From: Verrucomicrobiia bacterium
GTDB lineage: Bacteria > Verrucomicrobiota > Verrucomicrobiia > Limisphaerales > UBA11358
Assembly: GCA_025451535.1 (NCBI GenBank)
Contig: JANWKE010000172.1
Span: 1 to 54,788, forward strand
Direction of reading: 5' to 3'
DNA length: 54,788 nt
Shown piece after piece: positions 8,825-27,767 of the stretch. Positions within the stretch are counted from its first letter, which is position 1. Every line of letters begins with the position of its first letter. A program made the translations under genes and the position numbers. The notes beneath the pieces were generated by a model. The model worked only from the letters and a program-made list of their open reading frames with translations. It searched no databases and had not been told where the DNA came from.

Positions 8825-9883
8825 ATGGCACTCCTGGACGATATCGAGCCCCTGAAGCGAGCGGCATTGGCTGAATTAAAATCCGCCACCGACCTCGCCA
8901 CGCTCGAACAAAGCAAAGGCGTGTGGATTGGCCCGCACGGCAGGTTCACCGCGCTCATGAAACAGCTCGGTACGCTGTCGAAGGAGGAAAAACCCGCCGC
9001 CGGCAAGGCCATCAATGCTGCCAAGCTCGAACTTGAAGCCGCGCTCGCCGAACGCCGCGGCGAACTTGAGCTTGCGGCCGCGTTGCCGAAGGAACCGACC
9101 GATTTCAGCGCACCCGGCCGCCGCCGCGCGCTCGGCAGGTTGCATCCGCTCACACAGGTGACCGAGGACATTGTCCGCAGCTTCCGCAAAATCGGTTTCG
9201 TCGTCGCCGACGGCCCGGAAATCGAGGACGAATACCACTGCTTCGACGCGCTCAACACACCGGCCGACCATCCCGCCAGAGATACCCAGGACACGTTCTA
9301 TCTTGCCAGCACCGCGCCGAATGCGTCTCCCTCTCCCGGGGAAGAGGGCCGGGGTGAGGGCGGTCGTCAACCACAGTTGCTCCGCACTCACACCTCTTCC
9401 GTCCAAATCCGCGTGATGGAGAAGCAACCGCCGCCCATTCGCATCATCGTGCCGGGCCGCGTCTATCGCCGCGATAACGCCGACGCCACGCACAACCCGA
9501 CCTTCCAGCAAATTGAGGGACTTTACGTGGACAAAAATGTCACCGTCGGCGACCTCAAGGGCACGGTGGAATTCGTTTTCAAGGAACTGCTCGGCGAGGA
9601 GACAAAAATCCGGTTTCGCCCGCATTATTTCAGCTACACCGAGCCGAGCTTCGAGATTGATTTCAGCAACGCGCTGGTGAAGAAGTTAGGCAAGGACTGG
9701 TTGGAAATCGCCGGGTGCGGCATGGTGCATCCGCAGGTCTTCGAAAACGTCGGTTATGACCCCGAAATCTGGACCGGTTGGGCGTTCGGCTTCGGCATCG
9801 AACGCATCGCCATGATTCGTTATGGCATCAACGACATCCGCCTCTTTTACGAGAATGACGTGCGATTTTTGAAACAACTTTAA
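8825..9883 (+). CDS. pheS: Phenylalanyl-tRNA synthetase alpha subunit (with in-frame repeat insertion)
   Basis: This 352-residue class II synthetase subunit charges tRNA-Phe together with PheT. It has an N-terminal helical region (about 1-85), then GRLHPLT and GFVVADGPEIEDEYHCFDALN. Motif 2 follows with RVYRRDNADATHNPTFQQIEGL (given here only as landmark residues R-V-Y-R-R and H-N-P-T-F-Q). Motif 3 is GWAFGFGIERIAMIRYGI, and the C-terminus has NDIRLFYENDVRFL. Between DTFYL and LLRTHTS, which are nearly adjacent in E. coli PheS, about 20 extra residues (about 163-183) are encoded by a palindromic repeat at 9329-9360. The start at 8825 opens the conserved N-terminus; upstream codons in the same frame are not PheS-like. 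The frame is intact, so the enzyme is probably functional. Confidence 0.95.
   Translation: MALLDDIEPLKRAALAELKSATDLATLEQSKGVWIGPHGRFTALMKQLGTLSKEEKPAAGKAINAAKLELEAALAERRGELELAAALPKEPTDFSAPGRRRALGRLHPLTQVTEDIVRSFRKIGFVVADGPEIEDEYHCFDALNTPADHPARDTQDTFYLASTAPNASPSPGEEGRGEGGRQPQLLRTHTSSVQIRVMEKQPPPIRIIVPGRVYRRDNADATHNPTFQQIEGLYVDKNVTVGDLKGTVEFVFKELLGEETKIRFRPHYFSYTEPSFEIDFSNALVKKLGKDWLEIAGCGMVHPQVFENVGYDPEIWTGWAFGFGIERIAMIRYGINDIRLFYENDVRFLKQL
9329..9360. repeat. In-frame palindromic element inside pheS
   Basis: On the minus strand this reads CCCTCACCCCGGCCCTCT followed by CCCCGGGAGAGGG. It shares its left arm almost exactly with the element in pabB at 27166-27223, in the other genomic orientation. 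It encodes the Pro/Gly/Glu-rich stretch SPSPGEEGRGEGG in PheS. Confidence 0.8.
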
Positions 9884-10764: not shown

Positions 10765-13308
10765 ATGAAAGTCATCTTTAACTGGCTTAAACAGTACGTC
10801 GATTTTGACTGGTCGCCCGAGGAATTGACCGAGCGGCTCACCATGCTTGGTCTTGAGGCCGAAAATGTCCTCAAAATCGGCGGCGAGTTTGAAGGCATCG
10901 TCGTCGCCCAAATCCTTACCAAGGACAAGGTGCCCGGCTCGGACAAGCTCTCCGTCTGCAAGGTCAACGACGGGAAGGGCGAACGCACCATCATTTGCGG
11001 CGCACAGAACCACAACGTTGGTGACAAAGTACCACTCATCCTGCCGAACTTTGCCCTGCCGCTGAAACCAGGCGAAAAAGAACCGTTCGTCATCAAGGAA
11101 CGGAAAGTTTTCGGCATCACCAGCCAGGGCATGATGTGCTCCCCGCAGGAACTTGGCCTGCCGGACAAGGTGGACGGTCTGCTCATTCTGCCCAAGGAGG
11201 CACCGATTGGAAAATCATTCGCCGAATACCTCGGTCGCAGTGGTGGCGACGTGGTTTATGATCTGGAAATCACGCCGAACCGGCCGGATTGGAACAGCGT
11301 TATCGGCATCGCCCGCGAAATCGCGGCGGTCACCGGTAACCAGCTGAAGATGCCAGAAGTCAGAAGTCAGAAGTCAGAAGTCAGAGTCGAAAGTTTGGTT
11401 TCGGTAAGGATCGAAGACGCGGAGCTTTGCCCGCGTTACACGGCGCGGGTTGCGAAGGGCGTGAAAATCGGACCCAGCCCGGATTGGCTCCAGACCACCC
11501 TGGAAAAAGTGGGAATTCGGAGCATCAACAACGTCGTGGACGTGACAAATTACGTCATGCTGGAGATCGGCCAGCCATTGCACGCGTTCGATTATCATCT
11601 CATCGCCAAAGGCAAGGACGGCAAACCAACCATCGTCGTCCGCCGCGCGAAAGACGGCGAAAAATTCAAGACCCTCGACAATATCGAGCGCAAACTCACA
11701 GGCGACATGTTGCTGATTGCCGATGAGCAGAAAGGCATTGCGCTGGCCGGCGTCATGGGCGGACAGAACACGGAAATCAACGAGAAAACCGTGGACGTGC
11801 TCATCGAGAGCGCCTATTTCTCGCCGACAAACATTCGGCGCACCTCCAAAGCCCTGGGTTTGCGCAGCGAATCCAGCTACCGCTTCGAACGCGGTGCGGA
11901 CATCGGCATCTGCGACTGGGCCAGCCAGCGCGCGGCACAATTAATTCTGGAAACTGCCGGTGGGCAATTGGCCGATGGCGGGGTGGACGCCCATCCGAAA
12001 CCAGCTGAACCGAGGCAAATCACTTTGCGCCATCACAAAGTAAATGAATTGCTCGGCATCGCCTTGAAGCCGGAGGAATGCGAATTCCATCTCGGGCAGC
12101 TGGGACTTAAGATTGCCAACCGCAAGGCGCGTCCGGTCGGCGCAAGCGGTCCGCCGGAACCGGTGACGTTTCAAATACCCACCTTCCGCGTGGATTTGAA
12201 ACACGAGGTGGATTTGATTGAGGAGATCGCGCGGTTGCACGGCGTGGACAAGATTCCGGCCACCCCGCCACGCGGCGCGATTGGCACAAACGAGTTTGAT
12301 GCGGTTCACGACCAGATTGCCGAGGCCCGGCGGATTTTGAGCGGTTTGGGGTTGAATGAGGCGCAAGGGCAGACGCTGATTGCAAAGCCAGAAGTCAGAA
12401 GTCAGAAGTCAGAAGAAATCGTGGCGCTGGCCAACCCGCTGAGTTCGGACATGGACGTGTTGCGACCGAGTTTGCTGCCGGGGCTGATTCATTCGTTGCG
12501 GCATAATGTCAGCCGCAAGAATTACGACGTGGCACTGTATGAGATTGGAAGGGTGTTCAAAAATGTAGCGCAGACGTCTCCGTCTGTCCCGATTCCATCG
12601 GAAGGTGTCCCGCCCGGTGGTGCGGCTGGAAGTCGCGCGAACCCGCAGGCTGGCAACCGGCGCTACATTGAAGAACGCCGGGTCGCCATTGCGCTTACCG
12701 GTCAACGCACCCTGCCCTTCTGGAGCGGGAATGAACGCGACGCAAAATTTGATGCTTTTGATTTGAAGGGCCTGATTGAGGAATTTTTGGAGCAGTTCGG
12801 CGTTCGCGGCGTGACGTACGGCAAAGGCCCCGAAAGTTCGGCGCTATTTCTTGAGTCCGCCATCATTGCACTCGGTGGCAAGTTGCCGCTGGGTGAGATG
12901 GGCCAACTCTCGCCGGTCCTGGCCAAAAAGCACGATTTGCGCGACGCAGTTTTTCTCGCGGAGTTGAGTCTCGATCAACTGCTGGCGCGGCGGAATTCAG
13001 CCAAAGCGTTCAAGCCGTTGCCGCAGTTTCCCGCCATCCGCCGCGACGTAGCGATGCTCGTACCCGAGGCGACAACGCATGACGCTGTTCTGCAAACAGT
13101 CCGGAAAGCCAAACCGGCGAACCTTGAAGGCGTCGAATTATTCGACGTGTTTCGCGGGAAAAATGTCCCCGCAGGACAAAAAAGCCTGGCTTACGCTTTC
13201 ACCTATCGCTCGCCGGAAAGAACTTTGACTGACGCCGAAGTCAACGCAGCGCATGTGAGGATCGTGGAAGCGTTCAAAGCGCAATTGAAGGCAACGGTGC
13301 GCGAGTAA
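10765..13308 (+). CDS. pheT: Phenylalanyl-tRNA synthetase beta subunit (three in-frame repeat insertions)
   Basis: This 847-residue PheT has the standard domain order. An N-terminal region and the EMAP/OB tRNA-binding fold come first (about 40-150, with PGSDKLSVCKVNDG and TSQGMMCSPQELGL). The B3/B4 editing region follows (about 215-400, with NNVVDVTNYVMLEIGQPLHAFD and GVMGGQNTEI). Then come B5 (about 410-490, RVDLKHEVDLIEEIARLHG), the synthetase-like core and a C-terminal FDX-ACB domain from about 748. Three insertions keep the frame: heptamer repeats at residues about 197-208 and 542-550, and a 104-base element at about 600-635 between VFKN and RRVAIALTG. Typical PheT is about 790-800 residues, so the excess matches the insertions. 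It pairs with pheS as an alpha2beta2 enzyme. Confidence 0.95.
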   Translation: MKVIFNWLKQYVDFDWSPEELTERLTMLGLEAENVLKIGGEFEGIVVAQILTKDKVPGSDKLSVCKVNDGKGERTIICGAQNHNVGDKVPLILPNFALPLKPGEKEPFVIKERKVFGITSQGMMCSPQELGLPDKVDGLLILPKEAPIGKSFAEYLGRSGGDVVYDLEITPNRPDWNSVIGIAREIAAVTGNQLKMPEVRSQKSEVRVESLVSVRIEDAELCPRYTARVAKGVKIGPSPDWLQTTLEKVGIRSINNVVDVTNYVMLEIGQPLHAFDYHLIAKGKDGKPTIVVRRAKDGEKFKTLDNIERKLTGDMLLIADEQKGIALAGVMGGQNTEINEKTVDVLIESAYFSPTNIRRTSKALGLRSESSYRFERGADIGICDWASQRAAQLILETAGGQLADGGVDAHPKPAEPRQITLRHHKVNELLGIALKPEECEFHLGQLGLKIANRKARPVGASGPPEPVTFQIPTFRVDLKHEVDLIEEIARLHGVDKIPATPPRGAIGTNEFDAVHDQIAEARRILSGLGLNEAQGQTLIAKPEVRSQKSEEIVALANPLSSDMDVLRPSLLPGLIHSLRHNVSRKNYDVALYEIGRVFKNVAQTSPSVPIPSEGVPPGGAAGSRANPQAGNRRYIEERRVAIALTGQRTLPFWSGNERDAKFDAFDLKGLIEEFLEQFGVRGVTYGKGPESSALFLESAIIALGGKLPLGEMGQLSPVLAKKHDLRDAVFLAELSLDQLLARRNSAKAFKPLPQFPAIRRDVAMLVPEATTHDAVLQTVRKAKPANLEGVELFDVFRGKNVPAGQKSLAYAFTYRSPERTLTDAEVNAAHVRIVEAFKAQLKATVRE
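11354..11381. repeat. CAGAAGT heptamer array in pheT (copy 1)
   Basis: Four exact tandem units of CAGAAGT run from 11354 to 11381 and a decayed unit follows. In frame they read EVRSQKSEVR, a seven-residue period, at PheT residues about 197-208, just after the NRPDWNS segment. Confidence 0.9.
12389..12415. repeat. CAGAAGT heptamer array in pheT (copy 2)
   Basis: Three exact CAGAAGT units plus CAGAAG sit in the same orientation as copy 1 about 1 kb away. They encode EVRSQKSE between QTLIAK and IVALANPLS, which are normally close together in PheT. Confidence 0.9.
12564..12667. repeat. 104-base in-frame element bounded by TGTAGCGC/GCGCTACA in pheT
   Basis: The ends are perfect 8-base inverted repeats: TGTAGCGC at 12564-12571 and GCGCTACA at 12660-12667. 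An inner small palindrome (CAGACG/CGTCTG) follows the left end. It is translated without stop as a Pro/Ser/Gly/Ala-rich loop of about 35 residues. The end sequence recurs at 46812-46870. Confidence 0.8.
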
Positions 13309-17496: not shown

Positions 17497-17577
17497 ATTT
17501 ACGATATTGGATTTACGATTTACGAGGGGCCAAACAATTCATAACGGCGCGTAAATCGTAAATCGCAAATCGTAAAT
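17497..17577. repeat. Inverted pair of heptamer arrays between lemA and the M48 gene
   Basis: ATTTACG units run from 17497 to 17524 (three exact, one decayed). About 25 bases later the complementary CGTAAAT units run from 17550 to 17577 (three exact, one with one change). The two arrays could form a long hairpin. The element fills most of the lemA-M48 gap and just touches the protease start. Confidence 0.85.
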
Positions 17578-18362: not shown

Positions 18363-20117
18363 TCAACGGCTGCCAGGCACTTTGGCTTTATCCAAGTCCC
18401 CCCTGGACATCGCGGGCAAATAGACCTGAAGCGTGGAGCCCTTTCCGAGTTCACTTTCCACCAGGATCAGGCCGCCGTGACTTTTGACGATGGACAAGGT
18501 AGTCGACAACCCCAGGCCGGTGCCTTTGCCCAGTTCCTTGGTGGTGAAGAATGGTTCAAAAATCCGGTCACGAATATCCGGCGGAATCCCGTGGCCGTTG
18601 TCGGTTACTTCAAAAAGCACATAAGCGACAGGTTTGGCTTCGGGGTTGAGACTGACGAAATGAGCGTCGGCGGTGAAATTGCGCACCCTCAATTTTAGTT
18701 TGCCACCTTTCGGCATGGCGTCACGCGCGTTAACGCAAAGATTGAGCAGGACCTGGTGCAACTGCGTCATGTCGCCGGAAACCAGGGAGGCATCCGGAGC
18801 AACGTCGGTTTCAACCTGGATGGACTTGCTGAAAGTTTCAGTGGTGATGCGAATGACGTCCCGAATGAGCAGTTGCGGATTCACCGGCATCCGCTGGCCT
18901 TCCAGCCCGCGGCCAAATCCAAGGACTTGCTTGACAATGTCAGCGCCACGCTTGGCGCTGGCTTCCAGCCGGGTCAAGATTCCCAAGCCTTCATCGTCCT
19001 GAACCTTTTGTCGCAAGAGGGCGATGGAAATCAAAATGGGCGCCAAAATGTTGTTCAGGTCGTGGGCAATCCCGGTGGCCAGGCGGCCGATGCTTTCCAT
19101 CCGTTGGGCGCGCAGGAATTGTTCCTCCAGATGCTTTTTATCGGTGATGTCGCGGCCAATGCCAACCAGACCAATAATCGTGCCATGGGCATCGCGCCAG
19201 GGAACTTTCGTGGTGAGCAGCCAGCGGGCTTCCCCATCAGGCCGGATGACTTTCTCTTCCCGGTTGATGACCGGCTGTCCGGTTGTCAGCACCGCTTGAT
19301 CGTCGGTAAAAAATGCCGCCGCAATGTCAGACGGAAAGAGTTCAAAATCGGTCTTACCCAGGACCTCGGCTTCAGTCGTGAGGCCCATGTTTTTCACATC
19401 GCCCGGGTTGGCCAGGACCTTGCGGGCATCGCGGTCCTTTGCGTAGATGCAATCAGGCAGATTATCAATGACCGTGCGCAACAGGTTGCGCTCGGCCGTC
19501 AACCGGAGTTCCGCCTCCTTCTGCCGGGTGATGTCGCGCCCGCCGCCGACCAGACCGATGATGTTGCCGGCGGCATCACGCCGGGGAACCTTCGTGGTGA
19601 GCGTCCAAATGACCTCGCCATCGGCATTGATGACTTTTTCCTCACGGTTGACATGTGATTGCCCTTTCAACACCTCCAGATCATCGGCAAAAAGCTTTTC
19701 CGCAACTTCCCTGGGAAAGAAATCAAAATCTGTTCTTCCCAGCACCTCCGCCTCGCTTTTACAGCCCAGGGCATGGATATCGGCTGCGTTGGACAAGGTT
19801 TTGCGTACAGCCATATCCTTGACGTAAATATAGTCCGGCAGGTTATCAATCAAGGCACGCAACAGATTGCGCTCCTCCAGAAGCCTGGTCTCCATCTCTC
19901 TTTGTTTGGAGATGTCTGACAGGGCACCGACCATGCGCACGGGCTTGCCTTTGGCGTCATGAACCACATAGCCACGATCCAATACGTCCGCATACAGGCC
20001 GTTCTGGCACAAAAACCGGTATTCCTCCCGCCAGAATTCCTTGCCGCTGCGGATCTCACCGCTTGAATGCTTTCCTCCACGCGGGCCCGATCTTCCGGGT
20101 GAATGCGGTTGACCCAA
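18363..20117 (-). CDS. PAS-domain sensor histidine kinase (N-terminus in another frame)
   Basis: The frame encodes two full PAS domains and part of a first one. PAS units lie at about residues 80-200 and 205-325; each has the LPDYIYVKD or LPDCIYAKD core and ends in a PAC segment such as [21 protein letters not shown]. The kinase core follows: an H-box [22 protein letters not shown] (phospho-acceptor in HDLNN), the N-box [15 protein letters not shown], and G boxes [11 protein letters not shown] and [20 protein letters not shown]. There is no receiver domain and no membrane segment, so the kinase looks cytoplasmic. Its codons upstream of about 20060 are not PAS-like. The missing N-terminus lies in another frame (20062-20326), so the gene is frameshifted. 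Confidence 0.75.
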
Positions 20118-25450: not shown

Positions 25451-26286
25451 TCTTTCATTATAATTCAAATCCGCGGAGACATCATTTGAAAGACACCGGC
25501 CAGAGACGGGCATTCACGTTGATCGAATTGCTGGTGGTCATCGCCATCATCGGAATATTGGCGGCGTTGTTGCTGCCTGCCGTCAGCCTGGCCAAGCGCA
25601 GAGTCCAACGGATGGTCTGCCTGAACAATGTCCGGCAGATCAACCTGGCGATCCGAATGTATTGCGATGATAACAACGGCCGCACCCCGGTCGACGCGAG
25701 CGCGGTGGCCAATGCCAAAGACTTTCTTGATTATGACCTGGCCAACTGTTTTACCTATCGGCAGTTGATCGGGCAATACGTTGGCTTAAAGGGAGATCCT
25801 TCGCCTCACGACCGACTCTTTGTCTGCCCGGCGGACACATTTTCTTACGGCTTGGAGAGCCCTTCCCTTTCAATCACCTACCAATCCACAAGTTACCACG
25901 ACTCCCCCTTCACCCGGTTTTCGAGTTATGCGTTCAACGGTGGGATCACCAATCTTTTCAGCGTTTACACCAATGCCATCGGCTTGCGAAGTGAAAAATT
26001 CGACGCGATAAGACACCCGGCCAGAGCCGTTCTGGATCCGGAGGATTCGGCTTTTTGGCCTTTCTCCTGGCATGACCGCGGCAACGCCTCCGCGTTCGGC
26101 GCGGTCACTTTTAACAATGGAGCGGTTCTTTTTGACGACGCCAAAAACATAGTAGGTTTCGTGGACGGCCATGTCAGTTACGTCAAAATCTTCTGGAATC
26201 CCAGCCCGGTCCAACCGGGTGTCTGGGCCGTGGCAATCCAATACGATCCGCCCGCCGGATACGATTACCAATGGAGCGGAAATTGA
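25447..26286 (+). CDS. Type II secretion/type IV pilin-like pseudopilin (DUF1559-like)
   Basis: This 279-residue protein carries a prepilin leader at about residues 16-24 ([14 protein letters not shown]): the peptidase would cut before Phe, and Glu5 is present. The hydrophobic helix [21 protein letters not shown] follows. The body resembles the large family of verrucomicrobial and planctomycetal pseudopilins with [19 protein letters not shown], and VDGHVSYVK near the end is the H-x-DGHV signature. These proteins are assembled into pseudopili or anchored in the membrane; their individual roles are mostly unknown. The start codon overlaps the upstream stop (ATGA), so translation is probably coupled to the ECF fusion. 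The 3' end overlaps pabB on the other strand by 22 bases. Confidence 0.85.
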
Positions 26287-27767
26287 TGGCTCTGAACCAA
26301 AGCCGATGATTCAAACCTGATCGCCGCCAGAAAACCGGCGGCTTTCGCCAGTGTCTCTTCGTATTCCGCCTCCGGATTTGAATCTGCGACAATACCGGCG
26401 CCCACATTGAAATGCGCGAGACCGTCTTTGCAGACCGCCGTCCGGATGGTGATGCTCAACTGGCTCTCACGATTGAATCCAAGATAGCCGTGGCAACCGC
26501 AATAAGGCCCGCGCGAAATGGATTCCAGCTCGTCTATGATTTCCATCGCGCGGAATTTCGGCGCGCCCGTGATACTGCCGCCGGGAAAACTCGAAGCGAG
26601 CGCGGCAAAATGTGTCACATCATGACGCAACCGGCCTTCGACCGTCGAAACCAGGTGTTGGACCTGGGCGAATTTTTCGAGTTTGGCCAACTCCGGCACC
26701 TGAACTGAACCGAATTCGCAAACCTTGCCAAGATCGTTCCGCAGTAAATCGGTGATCATGATCAATTCGGCCAGTTCTTTGGCGCTGGTTTGGAGTTCAT
26801 AAGCAAGTTGCGCATCGCGGGTCGGATCGCTGTCGCGCGGACGTGTGCCCTTGATGGGTTTCGTCTGAATGTGCGAACCGCTCAGACGCAAAAACAATTC
26901 CGGCGAAGAGGAAGCCAACTGAAAATCACCGCAATCAAGATACGCCGAAAATGGCGCGGGGGAAACGGAACTCAGCCGGCCGAACAATTCCCAACCGGTA
27001 GGGACGGTGCGCTGCGCCGTCCGGTCATCGCAGCGCGATGACCCCACCCGAACCGTCAACCGTTGCGAGACGTTGACCTGATAAATATCGCCGGCACGGA
27101 TGTAACGCTGGGCGCGTTCGACGGCAGCGATGAACTCCGCGCGAGAAAAATTGGAAGTGACGAAACCCTCACCCCGGTCCTCTCCCATCGGATGGGAGAG
27201 GGTGGCCGAAGACCGGGTGAGGGCTTGTTTCCAAAATTCCGCCTGTTCCCGCGCCCGTTTTTCGCTGCGCGAACCGTCGGCGTTGAGGCCGGTGGAAACA
27301 ACGCAAACTTTGCCGAGTTGATGGTCGAAAGCCACCAGACTGTCGTAAAAGCCGACGTGTCCATCGGGCAACTCCAGGTCGTTGACGGCGCGGCGCGGCA
27401 GTTTCGGCTCGGTGAAATTTTTCAAATCGTAGCCCCAGTAACCGAAGCAGCCACCCAGCGGAAACGGCAGGTCAATCTCGTCCAGCAATTCAAACCGGGC
27501 CATGAGCGCGTCCAGAATTTGCCACGGATTGCCGAATTGGATTTGGGAGATGGCCGATGGGAGTCGGGAGTTGGGAAAGCTGATTTCACAGCGCGAGCCA
27601 AAGGAACGAAAAGTAAGAAACGGATTGACCGTGACAAACGAATAGCGCGCTGAGGGCGGGTCAAACGCCGAGGTCCGGAGCAAAATGACGCCGTGCTCGC
27701 TCCACAAATTTTCGACGAGCGATTCCGGCGTGTGCGCGGTGGCGATTTCCTGAATCAGCGGACGCAT
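26265..27767 (-). CDS. pabB: Aminodeoxychorismate synthase component I (with three in-frame repeat insertions)
   Basis: This 500-residue chorismate-binding enzyme is closer to PabB than to TrpE, because it has PIKGTRPR, whose Lys forms the covalent chorismate adduct in PabB, where TrpE has Ala. Other marks are [59 protein letters not shown] and the final [21 protein letters not shown]. The reaction turns chorismate plus ammonia into 4-amino-4-deoxychorismate for folate synthesis. Three in-frame repeats are present: heptamers (about residues 64-75), a palindromic element (about 182-201) and a double hairpin (about 242-256). Usual PabB is about 450 residues, and the excess matches these inserts. 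The LOG-family gene (27775-28455) lies upstream on the same strand. Confidence 0.92.
27002..27043. repeat. In-frame double-hairpin element in pabB
   Basis: Two adjoining palindromes lie here: GGACGG (27002-27007) with CCGTCC (27017-27022), and GGTCATCG (27023-27030) with CGATGACC (27036-27043). The protein reads [13 protein letters not shown] between LTVRV and WELFGRL, which are normally contiguous in the family. Confidence 0.75.
27166..27223. repeat. 58-base palindromic element in pabB
   Basis: The outer arms CCCTCACCCCGGTC (27166-27179) and GACCGGGTGAGGG (27211-27223) are complementary with one bulge. The inner arms TCTCCCATC and GATGGGAGA are perfectly complementary. The element is translated in frame as [11 protein letters not shown]. 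Its left arm matches the pheS element. Confidence 0.88.
27544..27578. repeat. Degenerate heptamer array in pabB
   Basis: Five seven-base units in perfect register (TGGGAGA, TGGCCGA, TGGGAGT, CGGGAGT, TGGGAAA) are read on the minus strand as [11 protein letters not shown] at PabB residues about 65-75. Confidence 0.7.

Follow-up and report, generated by a model that had tools for sequence, protein, structure and literature searches.

Palindromes inserted in frame into proteins are a kind of repeat already known from bacteria, in the form of Rickettsia palindromic elements (RPEs) and intragenic REPs. Intragenic GTAG repeats reach their highest number in Opitutus terrae, itself a verrucomicrobium, and recB provides one case of different REPs at roughly one site (PMC3733652, accessible part). 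TM or PIT elements have been described separately. They combine a hairpin with a third G-rich strand, triplex formation has been shown in vitro, and the layout occurs in more than 260 bacterial genomes (PMC4666352, accessible part). According to the same part of that article, E. coli TMs are always intergenic, without strand bias and without a known mobile element, and Holder and co-authors describe paired TMs with small deletions after which a hairpin can still form.

Here we analysed a window of 54,788 nucleotides, the whole stretch of contig JANWKE010000172.1 from a Verrucomicrobiia bacterium, and compared it with these systems. Three features look new: the location of TM/PIT elements within genes, a MITE-like unit that has TM at its ends, and landing loops common to unrelated repeat families. 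In the open-licence literature searched, mostly without full texts, we recognised no description of a TM within a gene or of one that terminates a longer unit.

The pheS and pabB copies and their relation to TM/PIT elements

The arm CCCTCACCCCGGYCCTCT (≤3 mismatches) has only two matches in the window, at 9343-9360 on the minus strand and 27166-27183 on the plus strand, against a mean of 0.08 in 100 shuffles, of which 0/100 held two. The feature is genuine and not a product of chance. We thereby confirmed the claims of the initial annotation that one palindromic arm is present in both pheS and pabB, that the two copies have opposite genomic orientation, that the pabB element is 58 bases long, and that both arms are translated in the sense of the host gene, as GEEGRGEG in PheS and GEDRGEG in PabB; the G-rich arm is in the identical frame in both. 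The features concerned are as follows.

8825..9883, plus strand: pheS, phenylalanyl-tRNA synthetase alpha subunit, host gene (Pfam tRNA-synt_2d 92-351, Phe_tRNA-synt_N)
9327..9363, plus strand: solo TM element, translated SPSPGEEGRGEGG (sequence, genome matches, alignment to TM_ECO no. 1)
9329..9337, plus strand: C-rich arm of the TM hairpin (sequence; layout as in the accessible part of PMC4666352)
9340..9348, plus strand: G-rich arm of the TM hairpin, single mismatch at 9342 (sequence)
9351..9360, plus strand: putative triplex third strand, GGGGTGAGGG (alignment to TM_ECO no. 1)
26265..27767, minus strand: pabB-type gene (chorismate-binding enzyme), second host (Pfam Chorismate_bind, Anth_synt_I_N)
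27166..27223, minus strand: 58-base two-ended TM palindrome in the linker joining the two PabB domains, translated in frame (sequence)

The two copies had been called the same palindromic element, which is right for the shared arm and wrong for the build: pheS carries a solo TM whose hairpin has one mismatch (A9342), and pabB carries a compact two-ended palindrome. When folded as single-stranded DNA, the pabB copy gave a z of -4.93, with 0/200 shuffles equally good. The pheS copy was not exceptional (z -0.73; 48/200 shuffles equally good), and its hairpin stability was dropped as evidence, being no better than that of the shuffles.

Aligned with E. coli TM_ECO no. 1, taken from Table 1 in the accessible part of PMC4666352, the pheS copy agrees at 31/33 bases with one gap, and the window element has the hairpin arms and third G-rich stretch of the TM/PIT consensus. 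Judged by this alignment, the window element is a member of the TM/PIT intrastrand-triplex repeat family. TM_ECO/PIT and the elements studied here are also alike in occurring on both strands, in forming close inverted pairs of two types and in showing small deletions in pairs (PMC4666352, accessible part). They differ in that the E. coli elements are always intergenic, a descriptive rather than defining trait, whereas here many copies lie in frame in genes (pheS, pabB and 21/69 matches in genome G001) and others form the ends of units of ~132, 150 and 190 bp.

Further copies in the genome, which the initial annotation had set as a test, are present: the own genome holds 32 matches to the 21-mer (≤2 mismatches), 16 per strand, some of them being the two ends of a single unit, and the reversed control gave 0. 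The recent common source that had been proposed stands as a common source, given these 32 matches and the empty control; "recent" is doubtful for pheS, as the TM is also present in the sister G022, and the element is not specific to the lineage, being the widespread TM/PIT element (PMC4666352, accessible part). At ≤1 mismatch, TM occurs in 37/40 same-genus genomes, with counts from 0 to 81 and control matches of 0 in all 40. In a phylum-wide sample it was found in 13/145 genomes, own genome included, with one control match each in 2/145.

Two other repeats were seen in the window, an AT-rich inverted repeat at 17497-17577 (28-base arms, 89% complementary) and a 125-base direct repeat at 19143-19267 and 19527-19651 (75% identical).

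Two-ended units of preferred lengths

Among the loci collected in this analysis, 56 non-identical units have two inverted TMs and a total length of 50 to 260 bp. Twelve measure 131-133 bp, 27 measure 148-152 bp and eight 188-191 bp, with nine elsewhere, so that 47/56 lie in three narrow classes. When the units are oriented alike, the left end is mostly CCGG and, in the two shorter classes, the right end is mostly TCAGGG-/TTAGGG-like; the interior is partially conserved, most highly close to the ends. In a second arrangement the outer ends face each other; the tally, in which overlapping loci enter twice, is 18 cases, and the gap measures 15-28 bp in 15. By our own arithmetic, 4/5 E. coli TM pairs in Table 1 of PMC4666352 (accessible part) have this same orientation, with 16-27 bp between them. 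In this clade, TM occurs solo, as close pairs and as the inverted ends of a MITE/REPIN-like unit of ~132, 150 or 190 bp. We did not rely on an apparent relation between unit length and in-gene location (6/12 units of 131-133 bp vs 3/27 of 148-152 bp; Fisher p 0.014), because the loci were partly picked by gene, the PabB locus L273 is not among the six, and the L148-L176 units are unclassified.

The inverted ends and fixed length of MITEs are found in these units, and a conserved interior only partly. The two also have in common a spacer between two inverted ends, preferred lengths, many copies and no gene of their own seen (PMC10969869, accessible part). No RAYT or other transposase is linked to TM here, which sets it apart from both REPINs and MITEs. 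Y1 transposases are present in 37/40 genus genomes, and the number of TMs correlates with that of Y1_Tnp genes over the 40 genomes (rho 0.51), as each does with genome size (rho 0.46 for TM, 0.49 for Y1_Tnp). REPINs consist of two inverted ends with a spacer and have preferred lengths and many copies, and the TM units likewise. A RAYT link of TM was unsupported: at the 14 Y1_Tnp loci checked (seven in the own genome and seven in relatives) TM lay within ~1.5 kb at 2/14, closely flanking the gene at neither.

In-frame copies in host genes

When the 32 matches of the own genome were checked for open frames, seven were in frame within six Pfam-supported genes, namely PheS, PabB, HypF, PurL, RsmB (where two matches form the arms of a single palindrome) and a zinc alcohol dehydrogenase. 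Probable hosts are UvrB (L024), whose contig stops beyond the insert, and a gene resembling 6-phosphogluconolactonase (L276), identified by eye. In G001, where 69 of 70 matches fell within the stretches examined, 21/69 are in frame inside 17 genes. Pfam domains lie around the copy or on either side in 15/17 of these hosts: a urease gamma-beta fusion, a UvrD-like helicase, a type ISP restriction enzyme, MnmE, the CCA-adding enzyme, LigA, UvrA, a histone deacetylase-like protein, RsmA, RsmH, a primase-polymerase, an oligopeptide ABC transporter, an amine oxidase, a flavodoxin-type reductase and a pseudouridine synthase; PabB and PheS were identified by homology. The stretches from G022, G046 and G010 (83 matches, ≤2 mismatches) supported 16 genes, 15 by Pfam and PheS by homology, including a dihydrouridine synthase with a Pfam match only on the side preceding the copies and a PD-(D/E)XK protein whose match preceding the copy is below the Pfam cut-off. 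Over the sampled genomes there are 31 distinct kinds of host gene, or 33 with the two probable ones, and thus in-frame palindromic inserts in unrelated genes, as known for RPEs. The presence in coding loops of unrelated enzymes, as put forward in the initial annotation, is supported.

The in-gene shares are approximate, because hosts without a Pfam match and copies in short frames were left out, and frames below the minimum length were not considered; copies without a long frame through them were counted as outside genes. Excluded from the in-gene count were L296, L300, L312, L319 and L323 in G001, L196, L201, L228, L230 and L238 in other genomes, and, in the own genome, L004, L011, L019 and L021, in which the copy lies beyond the domain or no family was assigned, and the unscanned L277.

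Five of the six frames of the type B TM are free of stops, and three of the type A TM. Among the G001 in-gene matches, the host gene reads the G-rich strand in 11 (8 GEGRGEG, 3 ERAGVR, 0 in the TGA frame) and the C-rich strand in 10 (6 LTPALSP, 3 PSPRPSP, 1 PHPGPLP). Both orientations and all five stop-free frames are therefore represented, and the stop frame alone is absent. These counts contradict the suggestion that coding copies keep one fixed orientation, which we saw only within the PheS loop. The chance that one given frame is missing from 21 copies over six equal frames is ~2% by our own arithmetic. The missing stop frame agrees with a removal of broken genes and is no proof of selection, since stop-bearing copies would fail an open-frame search.

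The in-frame inserts apparently leave the host proteins unbroken. PheS has a single match in the own genome and aligns at full length with relatives. By the Nei-Gojobori method, with the first 80 aligned codons omitted and the loops kept, dN/dS was ~0.06 (G000/G022) and 0.13 (G000/G001) for PheS, 0.15 for PabB (G000/G022; G022 is without TM there) and 0.18 for RsmB (G000/G022). An AlphaFold2 model of PheS from 56 sequences (mean pLDDT 74.4, pTM 0.59; a run with 15 rows gave an unusable pLDDT of 43.9) placed insert residues 163-180 between strands 158-160 and 184-186 with a predicted pLDDT <50, as for three further segments, and this prediction fits a tolerated loop. The best-matching solved structures are without the insert stretch of the PheS loop.

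In G001, translation/DNA-repair genes make up 10/17 hosts vs 4/18 recognised neighbour frames by our own classification (Fisher one-sided p 0.03; of 30 neighbour frames scanned, 12 had no family at E 1e-10, and hosts were scanned at a looser 1e-5), and pooled genomes gave 16/33 (p 0.06). This lean is suggestive only. GTAG and CGTC REPs show a comparable lean to repair and RNA genes (PMC3733652, accessible part), and the intragenic ones are also in-frame inserts. TM differs from them in having no GTAG or CGTC tag, and here a single loop is common to TM, GTAG-type repeats and 7-mers. The likeness to RPEs, which are in-frame palindromes in many unrelated genes with ~150 bp units (PMC10969869 and PMC3733652, accessible parts), is one of description; they occur in a different phylum, whereas the ends found here are the TM known from many bacteria.

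Other repeats were also noticed inside genes. A composite palindrome GTAG...CTAC of ~100 bp (degenerate in L003) lies at 12565-12666 (pheT), at 2264-2389 of L003 and at 450-587 of L004. It keeps the reading frame of its hosts PheT, HypF and an AcrB-type pump and represents a second in-gene repeat family. In L316 (G001:C12:20530-27160) there are three same-orientation TMs ~1.8 kb apart, the first within a Prim-Pol + DUF5906 gene.

Shared loops and explanations for the inserts

Of the two outcomes that the initial annotation had named as counting against it, neither was seen: besides the further copies, the PheS loop of many relatives is short and lacks the palindrome. Between DTFY and LLRTHT the loop measures 7 residues, typically LNTTDKR, in 11/30 genomes (own included), other families among them, and in 40 of the 79/80 readable named loci; eight of the named loci share the PheS body with genomes of the 30-genome set. 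TM was recognised by eye in the PheS loop of G000, G001, G022 (two in tandem), G046 and the named locus L131, and in decayed form in G002. Unrelated repeats occupy the same loop elsewhere: a GTAG-type palindrome in G005, G010 and G013, another palindrome in G026, and tandem 7-mers in G020, G023 and L093; the content of G024 and G038 has no clear assignment. All PheS TM copies share one orientation and frame, as do the three GTAG-type copies. Such uniformity is unexpected under random landing and could reflect allele exchange, a target preference or a structural constraint. Tandem 7-mers (GAAGTCA) were also seen in pheT (10765-13308), at 11352-11394 and 12387-12415, read in frame as PEVRSQKSEVR and PEVRSQKSEE, and relatives carry other 7-mers, likewise in frame, in PheS or RsmB.

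Of 37 PabB linkers examined, 34 were readable, with clear TM ends in G000, G001, G010, G019, G021 and G026 and a partial one in G005. It seems that this linker holds unrelated repeats in other species. Repeat-like peptides such as SRKDAKTQ... and PQRHRDTE..., seen as protein only, occur in L244, L245, L251, L253 and L264, the PabB linkers of G015, G013, G004, G014 and G023. For RsmB, 26 of 31 loci were readable; TM is present in G000, G010 and G022, and 7-mer repeats at the same position in G001 and G024. G022 carries a full 132-bp unit there, and its sister G000 has, after an identical left flank, a 45-base palindrome with 21-base perfect arms. Internal deletion from the unit to the palindrome is the simplest reading, and it may also be the origin of the compact pabB copy. 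At the PheS, PabB and RsmB loci examined, a base-level empty site was not found because the loops diverge too fast.

A tree of PheS and PabB from 25 genomes, built after removal of the loops, pairs G001 (TM) with G010 (GTAG-type) as sisters (100/99) and G000 with G022 (95/87), and the TM label requires at least three changes with G002 included, or fewer if its decayed copy is not TM; support is weak, with 5/22 inner branches starred. A PheS tree of 86 rows, kept from 112 after five unreadable, eight duplicate and 13 distant rows had been dropped, points in the same direction, also with weak support (10/83 inner branches starred). The changes counted on these trees may be gains or losses.

We assign a probability of roughly 0.78 to the account that TM/PIT units, as selfish repeats, land widely and that copies within genes survive only where they are in frame, free of stops and placed in a tolerant loop. 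It starts from what was observed directly, namely the copies, their frames and orientations, the unit lengths, the short loops of relatives, the differing repeats per loop and the low dN/dS of three hosts, to which it would add mobility, a direction of change, a selective filter and near-neutrality for the enzyme. Units would spread without encoding an enzyme of their own and would land mainly between genes; a copy in a gene would persist only if the frame is kept, the stop-bearing frame is avoided and the loop or linker tolerates ~13 to 50 residues. The tolerant sites (PheS, PabB and RsmB) may admit several unrelated repeat families, and full units may then contract by internal deletion to palindromes. 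We propose more tentatively, as a rather unlikely extension, that TM is more than a structural motif and forms the ends of an uncharacterised mobile unit that enters essential genes, those for translation and DNA repair above all, via few shared loops and steadily seeds essential enzymes with peptides of 13-50 residues; under that reading, such entry would be possible because the type B end is translatable in 5/6 frames.

All PheS TM copies agree in orientation, frame and position, and so do the three GTAG-type copies. This would also suit a single ancient insertion for each loop and repeat type in place of repeated landing, either inherited and lost or spread across species through homologous recombination of host genes. 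We consider this possible but doubtful: the 7-residue loop is near-identical in another family (LNTTDKQ in G029 vs LNTTDKR), which disfavours many exact excisions, the sister species G001 and G010 carry different PheS repeats, and the two-gene tree asks for at least three TM changes (fewer if the G002 copy is not TM). It is improbable that the inserts are domesticated and usefully alter enzymes, for example translation and DNA-repair proteins, since they decay and are replaced by unrelated sequences and lie between conserved parts, predicted without firm structure; the lean in host classes (p 0.03 in G001, 0.06 pooled) and its counterpart in the accessible part of PMC3733652 are what such a role would predict, although the former was obtained with unequal E-value limits. 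Broken genes, or assembly errors in metagenome bins, we regard as very improbable. The nearest named records are almost all metagenome assemblies, and repeats may mislead assemblers, but open frames and conserved domains flank the copies in several separate genomes and the same inserts are found in sister species. Gene breakage is likewise at odds with dN/dS values far below 1 and with a complete PheS that is the sole PheS match in its genome.

For annotation, these data are a warning that translated repeats can be the origin of peptides such as PHPGPLP, LTPALSPGER and GEGRGEG in proteins from this group. Taken together, the results join two literatures, that on TM/PIT triplex repeats, described from E. 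coli as intergenic, and that on protein-inserting palindromes. The unit of preferred lengths is a lead on how TM spreads, and the inserts constitute a natural experiment in the tolerance of different enzyme loops to insertion, offering a route to testing insert neutrality.
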